From Planctomycetota bacterium (GTDB lineage: Bacteria; Planctomycetota; UBA11346): 52,508 nucleotides of DNA. The notes beneath the pieces are model-generated. The model was given only the letters and a program-made list of their open reading frames with translations, ran no database searches and was not told the DNA's origin. Below, in pieces: positions 2,927-15,555 of the stretch (within the stretch, counting starts at the first letter, position 1; each line of letters starts with the position of its first letter). The stretch is taken from the NCBI GenBank assembly GCA_013696105.1, contig JACCZE010000098.1, forward strand, positions 1 to 52,508, given 5' to 3'. Position numbers and translations under genes: made by a program.

Positions 2927-4012
2927 TCACAGCAGATCGGTGCGGCCCTCGGACTTCAATCGCTCGACGGCTTGCTTCACCTGCTGGCTCTTGCCCTTGG
3001 GAACGATCAGGATGGCATCGTCGGTCACGATCACGCTCATGCGCTCGACGCCGATCGCCGCGATCACCTGCTTGGTCTGGGACATGAACAGGCTGTCCGC
3101 GCAATCGATGGCGAGGACATCGCCGCGCGCGATGACCTTCTTCTCGTCTCCGGGCAGGTGGTCGTAGAGCGAATCCCAGCTGCCCACATCATCCCAGGCG
3201 AAACGGCCGGTGACGACGCAGATGTCCTTCGCGTGCTCCATGAGCGCGAAATCGATGCTGATCTTCTTCAGCGGCTGATAGATCTCGGCGAGCGCACGAT
3301 CGAAGCCGGGGGTTCCCCACACCGCCGTCAATGGCCGCAGCGCATTGGTCAGCCAGCTGCAGTGCTTTCCCAATTCGGACAGCACGACATCCGATCGCCA
3401 GGTGAAGATACCGGCGTTCCAGCGGTAGCTGCCGTCGTCGAGGTACGCGCGCGCGGTCGCCTCGTCCGGCTTCTCGACGAAGCGCTCGACGCGGTCCACC
3501 ACCACCCCGTCCACATCGCTCATGCGGCTGCCGACCTTGATGTAGCCGTAGCCGGTCGCGGGGAACCGGGGAGAAATACCGTACGTGACCAACGATCCAG
3601 CACGGGCGACATCGATGCCGGCGCAGAGCGCTTGCTGGAAGTGGTCGAGCGGAGTGATGGTCTGGTCCGCCGGCAGCAGGATCATCGTCGCGCCGGGGGC
3701 CATGTGCTCGACCACCAACGCGGCGAGCGCCACGCACGCGGCGGTGTCGCGGCCGACCGGTTCGGCGATGATGTGATCGGGCTTCAGCATCGGCAGCTGA
3801 CGCCGGGTTTCGACGGCGAGCGCTGCGGTGGTGATCACCAGCACGCGTTCAGCAGGGATCAGCGGCTGCAGGCGCGCGACCGTGGCCTGGATCATCGTCG
3901 TCTCGCCGATGATACGCACGAGCTGCTTGGGGAAGGCGTTGCGGCTGACGGGCCAGAAGCGGGTGCCGGAACCACCGGCCATGATCACCGCGTAGACGGG
4001 GGCATCGGGCAT
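2927..4012 (-). CDS. manC: Mannose-1-phosphate guanylyltransferase
   Basis: MAGGSGTRFWPVSRNAFPKQ nucleotidyltransferase signature, FVEKPDEATA, WNAGIFTWR; start set at MPDAPVYAVIMAGG. Confidence 0.9.
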   Translation of the reverse strand: MPDAPVYAVIMAGGSGTRFWPVSRNAFPKQLVRIIGETTMIQATVARLQPLIPAERVLVITTAALAVETRRQLPMLKPDHIIAEPVGRDTAACVALAALVVEHMAPGATMILLPADQTITPLDHFQQALCAGIDVARAGSLVTYGISPRFPATGYGYIKVGSRMSDVDGVVVDRVERFVEKPDEATARAYLDDGSYRWNAGIFTWRSDVVLSELGKHCSWLTNALRPLTAVWGTPGFDRALAEIYQPLKKISIDFALMEHAKDICVVTGRFAWDDVGSWDSLYDHLPGDEKKVIARGDVLAIDCADSLFMSQTKQVIAAIGVERMSVIVTDDAILIVPKGKSQQVKQAVERLKSEGRTDLL

Positions 4013-4053: not shown

Positions 4054-4280
4054 ACGTGCTACGTGCTACGTGCTACGTGCTACGTGCTACGTGCTCCGTC
4101 CTCCGTCGACGGCATCGAGATCAGGCGCCGCTCCGGAGGCGCGACGGGCTGTCCGACGGAGGACGGAGCGCGCTGGACGCAGCAAGTGGCGTGCCGTCCT
4201 CAGTCAACGGCATCGCACAGGCGCCGCCTCCCCAGGCGACGGGCTGTCGACGGAGCACGAAGGACGGAGGACGGAGCACG
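4054..4280. repeat. Heptad-phased intergenic element, locus A: six perfect ACGTGCT units (4054-4095) plus two imperfect hairpins (4091-4169, 4191-4280)
   Basis: Direct reading; arms gtgctccgtcctccgtcgacggc / gctgtccgacggaggacggagc and gtgccgtcctcagtcaacggc / gctgtcgacggagcacgaaggacggaggacggagcacg. Confidence 0.9.
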
Positions 4281-4286
4281 TGGTGC

Positions 4287-5201
4287 CTATCGCTTATCCG
4301 CGTGCAGCGCGACGAGCAGCCGATTCAGCGGCAGGTGGGCGGGCTCCGCGGTCGTGCATTCGACCAGGGCGCATGCGCGGCTGCGCGCGGCCTTCTGCAG
4401 TTCGAGCCGATGCTTGGCGACCTCTTCGACGTAGGCCGCACGCAATGCGCGCGGCTCGGTCGCGATGGTGTCGGTCCCTTCGAGGTCCTCGAAACGGCTC
4501 ACGGTTGCGACGCCGAGATCGGTCTCGTCCGGATCGAGCACCCACACCAGGGCGCAGTCGTGGCCGCGCCGGCGGACCCGATCGATCGCGCTGGTGATCG
4601 CCTGCGGGTCGGCGATGAGATCGGAGATCAGGATCACCAATCCCTTGCGCACCGACGGGGCGAGCAGGTGCTCGAGCCCCTTGACCGCATCCGTGCCGCC
4701 CTTGGGCACATGCGCCTCGAGCGCGCGGCAGATGCGTTCGAGCTGCGACTGATGCGCGGGCTTGTATTCGACCGACGCCTGCTCGTCGAACAGGATGAGC
4801 CCAGCTCGGTCCTGCTGGCCGAGGACGAGATACGCCAGGGAAGCAGCCAGGATCGATGCGTAGCGGTACTTGGTCAGCCCGGCGCGTTCGCCCTGGTAGG
4901 ACATGCTCGCCGACCCGTCCACCGCCAGAGTGCATCCGAGGTCGGTTTCCGCCTCGTAGCGTTTGAGCACCAGGCGATCGCTGCGGCCGAGCACCTTCCA
5001 ATCGAGGTGGCGGATATCGTCCCCCGCAACGTACTGCCGATGGTCGGCGAAGTCGACCGAGTGGCCCTTGTGGGGGCTGCGGTGCGCACCCGTCTGCAGA
5101 CCCTCGACCACCAGCCGCGCGGCGACCTCCAGACTGTGCAACCGCGCGAGATCGGCGGGCCTGATCAGCGGCGAGGCGGTGGCGTGCAGCATGGCGCCCA
5201 C
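4287..5201 (-). CDS. DUF58 domain-containing protein
   Basis: GDDIRHLDWKVLGRSDRLVLKRYEAETDLGCTLAVDGSASM is characteristic of DUF58. Confidence 0.88.
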   Translation of the reverse strand: MGAMLHATASPLIRPADLARLHSLEVAARLVVEGLQTGAHRSPHKGHSVDFADHRQYVAGDDIRHLDWKVLGRSDRLVLKRYEAETDLGCTLAVDGSASMSYQGERAGLTKYRYASILAASLAYLVLGQQDRAGLILFDEQASVEYKPAHQSQLERICRALEAHVPKGGTDAVKGLEHLLAPSVRKGLVILISDLIADPQAITSAIDRVRRRGHDCALVWVLDPDETDLGVATVSRFEDLEGTDTIATEPRALRAAYVEEVAKHRLELQKAARSRACALVECTTAEPAHLPLNRLLVALHADKR

Positions 5202-6258: not shown

Positions 6259-6297
6259 CCTGTCCGACGTAGGACAGCGGACGGAGGACGGAGGACG
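6259..6297. repeat. Heptad-phased intergenic element, locus B (half element)
   Basis: cctgtccgacgtaggacagcggacggaggacggaggacg; reverse complement reads gtcctcc gtcctcc gtccgct gtcctac gtcggaca ggc. Confidence 0.75.
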
Positions 6298-6305
6298 TTT
6301 TCTCG

Positions 6306-13947: not shown

Positions 13948-15519
13948 ATGGCAAAGATTCTGGTCGCCGACGGCATGGCGCCCGAGGGCCTCGAGATCCT
14001 GAAACAGGGCGGCCATACCGTCGACAACCGCAAGCTCGGCGTCGACGAGCTGATGCGCATCATCGGCGAGTACGATGGCCTGGTCATCCGCTCCGCCACC
14101 CAGGTCACCGAGAAGGTGATCCGCGCCGGAGCCCCCAATCTCAAGGTCGTCGGCCGCGCGGGAGTGGGCGTCGACAACGTCGACCTGCCCTCGGCGACCG
14201 TGACCGGCGTCATCGTCATGAACGCTCCCATGGGCAACATCGTGTCCGCCGCCGAGCATACCATCGGCATGGTCTTCGCCGTGGCGCGCATGATCCCCCA
14301 GGCGCACGCCAAGCTGGCGAAGGGCGACTGGGACAAGAAGAGCTTCACCGGTATTGAACTCGACGGCAAGACCCTGGGCATCATCGGTCTGGGGAAGATT
14401 GGCAAGCACGTCGCCCTGGTGCTGCAGGCCGCGGGCATGAACGTCATCGCGAGCGATCCGTTCCTCAGCCCCGAAGTGGCGAAGGAATTGCGCATCGAAT
14501 CGGTGACCCTCGACCAGCTGCTGCCGCGCGCGGACATCATCACCGTGCACACGCCGCTGACCGAACAGACCCGCAACATGATCAACGCGGCTCGCTTCAA
14601 ACAGATGAAGAAGTCCGCGCGCATCGTCAACGTCGCCCGCGGCGGGATCATCGACGAGGCTGACCTCGCCGAAGCCCTGAAGTCGGGGACCATCGCCGGC
14701 GCAGCGCTCGACGTGTTCGCAGAGGAGCCGCTGCCCGCATCCAGCCCGCTGTTCGGCCTGCCGAACATGATCCTCACGCCCCACCTGGGAGCGAGCACCG
14801 AGGAGGCGCAAGTCAAGGTATCGGTCGACATCGCCAACCAGTTCAATGCGTATTTCGCCAGTGGGAAGATCATCAACGCGGTCAACGTGCAATTGCGCGT
14901 GGATCCGGCGATCGACGGCTACCTGTACGCGGCCGAGGCGCTGGGCGCCGCGGTGGTGCAGACGCTCGACGAGCCGCTGATGGGTCTCGAGGTGATCGCG
15001 CGCGGCGATCTCGCGCGCTACGACACCAAGCCCCTGGCGACCGCCGCGCTCAAGGGCGCGCTCGCCAAGATCAGCGCCCAGGTGGTGAACTTCGTCACCG
15101 TCAGCCAGATCGCCAAGGACCGCGGCATCACCATCACGAGCTCGTCGAGCGAGCAGGGCAGCGCCGAGGGCGGCGAGCTCACCGTCAAGGCGACCACCGC
15201 GAACGGCATGCACCTGATCGGGGGAGGCCTGGTCCACGGCCAGCTGCGCGTGCTGCGTTACAACGAGTGGCCGATCGATCTGCCGATCGGCGGACACCTG
15301 CTGGTCATGGAATACCCGGATCGGCCGGGCATGGTCGGCAAGTACGGCTCCATCCTGGGCGCCAACAACATCAACATCGCGCGCATGGAAGTCAGCCGTA
15401 TCGACGGCCGCGGCGACGCGTTGGTGATCCTCACGCTCGACGATCCCATCCCCGTGACGGTGTTCGACGAACTCGTGAGCCTGGTGAAGCCGAACAAGGC
15501 CTACAAGGTTTCGCTGTAG
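13948..15519 (+). CDS. serA: D-3-phosphoglycerate dehydrogenase with C-terminal ACT domain
   Basis: GRAGVGVDNVD, LGIIGLGKIGKHVA, ARIVNVARGGIIDEADL, ACT-like YPDRPGMVGKYGSILG. Confidence 0.95.
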   Translation: MAKILVADGMAPEGLEILKQGGHTVDNRKLGVDELMRIIGEYDGLVIRSATQVTEKVIRAGAPNLKVVGRAGVGVDNVDLPSATVTGVIVMNAPMGNIVSAAEHTIGMVFAVARMIPQAHAKLAKGDWDKKSFTGIELDGKTLGIIGLGKIGKHVALVLQAAGMNVIASDPFLSPEVAKELRIESVTLDQLLPRADIITVHTPLTEQTRNMINAARFKQMKKSARIVNVARGGIIDEADLAEALKSGTIAGAALDVFAEEPLPASSPLFGLPNMILTPHLGASTEEAQVKVSVDIANQFNAYFASGKIINAVNVQLRVDPAIDGYLYAAEALGAAVVQTLDEPLMGLEVIARGDLARYDTKPLATAALKGALAKISAQVVNFVTVSQIAKDRGITITSSSSEQGSAEGGELTVKATTANGMHLIGGGLVHGQLRVLRYNEWPIDLPIGGHLLVMEYPDRPGMVGKYGSILGANNINIARMEVSRIDGRGDALVILTLDDPIPVTVFDELVSLVKPNKAYKVSL

Positions 15520-15555
15520 ACGTCCGACGTCCGAGGTCCGACGTCCGAGGTCGGG
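15520..15555. repeat. Heptad-phased intergenic element, locus C (half element)
   Basis: acgtccgacgtccgaggtccgacgtccgaggtcggg = GTCCGAC GTCCGAG GTCCGAC GTCCGAG; begins at the serA stop codon. Confidence 0.8.

Follow-up and report, generated by a model that had tools for sequence, protein, structure and literature searches.

An ACGTGCT array between a DUF58 gene and manC in a Planctomycetota genome, read as a slipped arm of a dispersed heptad-armed repeat

In a Planctomycetota bacterium (assembly GCA_013696105.1), a perfect tandem array of a seven-base unit sits between a DUF58 gene and a manC-like gene and leads into two hairpins. The question is whether such an array belongs to manC, whose expression its length might tune, or to something more general that happens to lie there. 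Here we follow the locus, called locus A, through the window (the whole stretch analysed, 52,508 nt of contig JACCZE010000098.1), the rest of the genome and its relatives. The best reading, to which we give a probability of about 0.6, is that locus A holds a pair of elements of a palindromic intergenic repeat that is present in high copy and has heptad arms, one arm having slipped locally, and that the repeat, if functional, is a 3′ mRNA hairpin.

The array and its hairpins

The features of the locus are as follows (no strand is assigned to the repeats).

4287 to 5201, minus strand: DUF58 (VWA-like) gene, which precedes the element on that strand (PF01882, E 1.8e-42)
4194 to 4280, no strand: element A2, with a short left arm CCGTCCTCAGTC, a loop and a right arm of about four heptads (CGACGGAGCACGAAGGACGGAGGACGGAGCACG)
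4093 to 4169, no strand: hairpin A1, arms 4093-4108 and 4154-4169, with a 45-nt loop containing GCTGTC
4054 to 4095, no strand: ACGTGCT x6, the apparently expanded outer part of the left arm of A1
2927 to 4012, minus strand: manC-like nucleotidyltransferase gene, start ATG at 4012 (PF00483, PF22640)

A sequence-only reading had described six perfect ACGTGCT units at 4054-4095 in the same 7-bp register as the hairpin arms, and both statements hold. All six units are perfect in the window sequence, TRF calls a period of 7 over 4054-4099 with 97% match, and a single lag-7 run from 4054 to 4107 carries the array into CTCCGTN heptads and on into the hairpin arms with its phase unbroken. ACGTGCT is itself a CTCCGTN heptad with one base changed (variant unit CTACGTG). 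Three-unit matches to it with up to two mismatches number six in the window against none in 100 shuffles. The spacer holding the locus is 274 nt long; the edge of the block at 4280 is 6 nt from the DUF58 stop, which ends at 4287, and the array is 41 nt from the manC ATG, in agreement with the spacing given earlier. Codon-based gene calling did not pick the long plus-strand open reading frames that cross the array, and we take them to be spurious.

The two hairpins proposed for the locus are both present, A2 being the weaker (its arms, 4194-4205 and 4263-4274, are short and 92% complementary), but the predicted RNA does not keep them apart: its minimum-energy structure is one long hairpin in which the outermost arm of A1 pairs with that of A2. 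As RNA, the locus beats all 200 shuffles in predicted folding (z -5.0). ACGTGCT units past about the second do not lengthen the main stem in these folds and only fold on themselves. Most of the array thus lies outside the main stem, which weakens the idea that arm length tunes the stem, and the hairpin is probably little affected by how many units the array has.

A repeat dispersed at gene ends

The genome is a draft of 4.33 Mb, and the genome-wide figures given here are extrapolations from samples of its contigs. Locus A used as a query matches the genome at 86 places, some palindromic sites being counted twice, once on each strand. A targeted sample, consisting of the window and about 540 kb of contigs picked because they had matches, contains 106 arrays of period 7, compared with 0, 9, 4, 1 and 2 at periods 5, 6, 8, 10 and 11. 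An evenly spaced sample of 35 contigs (about 207 kb readable) holds 15 period-7 arrays against 0-6 at other periods, the harmonic 14 aside, from which we estimate about 300 arrays per genome.

The arrays share an architecture. The element has the form (CTCCGTB)n-loop-(VACGGAG)n, and adjacent arrays of this main class face inward in 57 cases and outward in two, most neighbours being 26-100 nt apart. The commonest array length is 27-34 nt, or about 4.5 units per arm, a mode that is absent at lags 6 and 8-10. The outer ends of the arms carry ACGTT, and loops often start with GACAGCC or similar. Beyond these edges the loops are mostly unrelated, with only four of 946 pairs exceeding the shuffle maximum. 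At the variable base of the main unit, C occurs 194, G 146 and T 106 times, and A is absent from all 446 positions in the own-genome sample. Further unit classes in the genome are GTCCGAC, GGTTGGT and GGCGGAT. Arms of different classes can be combined with the inward polarity kept, as when ACGTGCT faces GACGTCG; four such pairs were found (contigs L009, 9848-9957; L015, 3539-3651; L023, 6352-6471; L028, 2997-3081). A different kind of palindrome, a perfect 18-bp inverted repeat (gcagtgaattctgcaggg) with a 21-nt loop and no heptad basis, occurs at 18666-18722 of contig L025 and is missing from the aligned site in the congener described below.

The window holds further examples, and an Rfam search of the window gave no match.

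6267 to 6300, no strand: single inward array of the CTCCGTB family (GGACGGAGGACGGAGGACGTTTTC), between speE and a decarboxylase gene
15519 to 15552, no strand: GTCCGAC/GTCCGAG array of a second heptad class, beginning directly at a stop codon
51900 to 52107, no strand: locus B, made of B1 and B2, complete tandem elements of the CTCCGTB family

The array at 6267-6300 has no partner arm and is followed by GTTTTC.

The elements keep to particular places. By the codon-based calls made in this analysis, in which about 88% of the sequence is coding, 108 of 118 arrays fall in the remaining 12%, outside genes. Their median distance is 17 nt to the nearest 3′ end and 70 nt to 5′ ends. Codirectional gaps hold 53 clusters. 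Of these, 24 begin no more than 15 nt past the upstream stop, where uniform placement predicts 12 and none of 5000 placements reached 24; 37 are closer to the stop than to the start against 16 expected. Divergent gaps are under-represented: they make up 94 of the 364 gaps that are 60 nt or longer but hold 7 of the 70 clusters with known neighbours. Since the elements prefer the upstream stop over the downstream start, a role at 3′ ends, or no role, is likelier than one specific to manC.

Only one sampled genome, G001, is from the same genus. It is 61% complete, and its manC and DUF58 proteins are 80% and 94% identical to those encoded here. Neither of the two genomes yielded a 16S gene. The 16S of one family member matches the planctomycete probes PLA46 with one mismatch and PLA886 with none, and across this member and relatives in the phylum the mismatches to PLA46 number 0-3, which makes Planctomycetota the likely phylum. 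Its DUF58-manC spacer has orthologous but diverged elements with heptads of the GTTCTNN type and no ACGTGCT array. At locus B it has a diverged pair of elements that can be aligned with B1 and B2; the left arm of its B2 counterpart is longer by one heptad, as counted by eye on the alignment. Unit number therefore differs between the two species. In nine further family members that have DUF58 beside manC, the spacer, short in most of them, carries no heptad element. Inverted heptad pairs recur elsewhere with other units: GTTCGGC and GGCTGGA in G013; GAGCTAC, GTCCGAT and GTCCGGT in G016; and GTGCGGA in G020. In G013 and G016 several arms abut stop codons, at distances of up to about 30 nt from the end of a gene. 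Such pairs were not seen in the remaining samples of the family and phylum, several of them small. A scan of genome contigs for an exact two-unit hairpin pattern, from which the own and very near records may have been excluded, returned one match, in a Nesterenkonia MAG: one short hairpin with two units per arm, flanked by AAAACCCTCC and GGAGGGTTTT, which we judged unrelated.

Pairing, slippage and a possible role

Locus B, like locus A, beats all 200 shuffles when folded as RNA (z -9.6). Between the two arms the variable base shows weak covariation (98 of 218 pairs against 84-90 expected; p 0.03-0.09), and in the single alignment of locus B with G001, pairing survives in seven changed pairs and is lost in 18, which falls short of proof that selection acts on pairing. 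A TTTT tract follows 5% of outer ends compared with a background of 1.6%, which argues that most elements are not classical terminators, and we rejected intrinsic termination as their general role; locus A has no U-tract after its hairpin, and B2 has a T6 tract.

The arms themselves bear signs of turnover. Adjacent units within an arm have the same variable base in 159 of 332 cases, against 120.7 ± 7.9 in shuffles, and several arrays are long runs of a single variant unit. Both observations fit slippage. The earlier proposal that arms grow and shrink by whole heptads gains indirect support from homogenised neighbours, one-variant runs and the different unit number in G001. Replication slippage would lengthen, shorten and homogenise the arms, and the six ACGTGCT units would be a local expansion of this kind in the arm of A1. 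Among longer simple repeats, heptamers have been described as the commonest in many bacterial genomes, and polymerase slippage has been suggested as their source (PMC4679880). Where transcribed, the element would, if it has any role, act as an mRNA hairpin at the 3′ end: a stabiliser, a processing signal or a partial terminator. Such roles have been proposed for REPs and for hairpins of the cyanobacterial STRR (short tandemly repeated repetitive) heptamers, among them the one between hupS and hupL. We favour a 3′-end mRNA hairpin or a tolerated repeat, its arm length set by slippage.

Known relatives in form and alternative readings

Several known repeats resemble the element in part. The STRR heptamers of filamentous cyanobacteria form hairpins, e.g., between hupS and hupL and, upstream of hoxW, near the 3′ end of the preceding gene; these hairpins have no known function, and it was proposed that they serve transcript stability, couple translation or terminate transcription (PMC2670836). 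The points in common are 7-bp units at many intergenic sites, a capacity to form hairpins, and a location between genes near the 3′ end of the upstream one (PMC2670836). Our elements likewise have tandem 7-bp units at many intergenic sites and hairpin potential, at the two loci that were folded. They differ in their units, in their phylum and in being inward-facing inverted arrays of about 4.5 units with mostly unique loops. Common descent is untraceable on 7-mers, and we therefore class the element as STRR-like rather than as a member of STRR.

The tRNA-Leu(UAA) intron of Nostoc has a P6b stem-loop built on the heptad motifs TDNGATT or NNTGAGT (PMC4476775). Its stem also consists of degenerate heptads and gains or loses entire heptads on either side or on both, and two motif classes yield a similar structure (PMC4476775). 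P6b is, however, a single locus in a group I intron, whereas the present element is dispersed at gene ends. REPs and MITEs tagged with GTAG or CGTC are short dispersed palindromes, mostly 3′ of coding regions and species-specific, and are found in Planctomycetes too (PMC3733652). REPs are palindromes of 20-40 bp that end in GTAG or CGTC, with conserved sequence and no heptad arms (PMC3733652); here CGTC occurs inside the heptads, yet whole elements are about 100 nt long.

The likeliest alternative is that the element is a selfish or neutral palindrome of MITE type with no function in the cell, amplified by a past transposase, tolerated just after stop codons as the least harmful place and kept alike by slippage or conversion. 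The inward arms with ACGTT at their outer ends are defined terminal inverted repeats. The patchy distribution in the family, the manC spacers of other genera that lack the element, at least one site apparently occupied in this genome and not in G001, the scarcity in divergent gaps and the few loop pairs that are homologous beyond shuffles would all suit such an origin. Against it, loops are mostly unrelated, the sampled sequence has no gene enclosed by inward arms that could be an autonomous relative, and neither a target duplication nor a clean empty site was seen, the flanks being too diverged. Nor does a drive of the REP/REPIN type by RAYT (Y1_Tnp) fit: counts of this transposase do not follow heptad abundance, with no match in element-bearing G001 (61% complete, as noted) and 13 in G010, where arrays were not detected. 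We regard this origin as unlikely, though it has to be taken seriously.

It is also conceivable, and to our minds doubtful, that heptad-armed hairpins are a distinct repeat class. Period, arm length and polarity would then be constrained, and the species-specific units would change together in the two arms and from locus to locus. Such a class would imply a co-evolving factor able to read tandem heptads, or else a replication process that templates one arm from the other. As observed, the bacterial family holds several heptad families of the same geometry and different sequences. The orthologous loci with diverged arms in the two congeners make concerted evolution of heptad arms testable.

A protein might instead read tandem heptads on opposite strands, the loop being a mere spacer. 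This reading is modelled on the paired tandem-repeat sites of Geobacter metallireducens, which fall into classes 1-3 (class 2 TCTCCGTS[Y], class 3 MTYCTGA; PMC2700814). Those sites, too, are opposite-strand pairs of 7-8 nt tandem repeats at variable distance and in many copies (PMC2700814); they differ in being fewer and partly octamers, and are read as sites for unidentified global regulators (PMC2700814). Fixed inward polarity, arms of about 4.5 units whatever their sequence, unrelated loops, the four mixed pairs and the missing A at the variable position would all be expected of paired sites. But no candidate protein was found, the unit sequence changes between species, and the arrays adjoin stop codons, not promoters; we hold such sites to be improbable.

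The sequence-only reading had suggested that the block could tune manC expression. A contingency-type VNTR, in which manC would be switched or tuned by how many ACGTGCT units are present, now seems very improbable. A perfect array so close upstream of the manC start invites the idea, and unit number does differ from that of G001, which is a difference between species only. The predicted main stem, however, is insensitive to units beyond about two, no promoter-like match adjoins the array, and the same heptad families follow many unrelated genes, the element being one of many copies in the genome.

An artefact of short-read assembly, which a draft in 481 contigs with some ends in or near heptad arrays might suggest, can scarcely explain a 42-nt array that has unique flanks, is below the usual read length and has orthologous elements at the same spacer in the independent assembly of G001. 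The contigs concerned (L161, 16186-16237; L024, 1-25; L162, 10-32) end or start in or near heptad arrays, which suggests that heptad repeats break the assembly. The longest array seen, 13 near-perfect ACGGAGA units at 45-137 of L029, likewise lies near a contig end.
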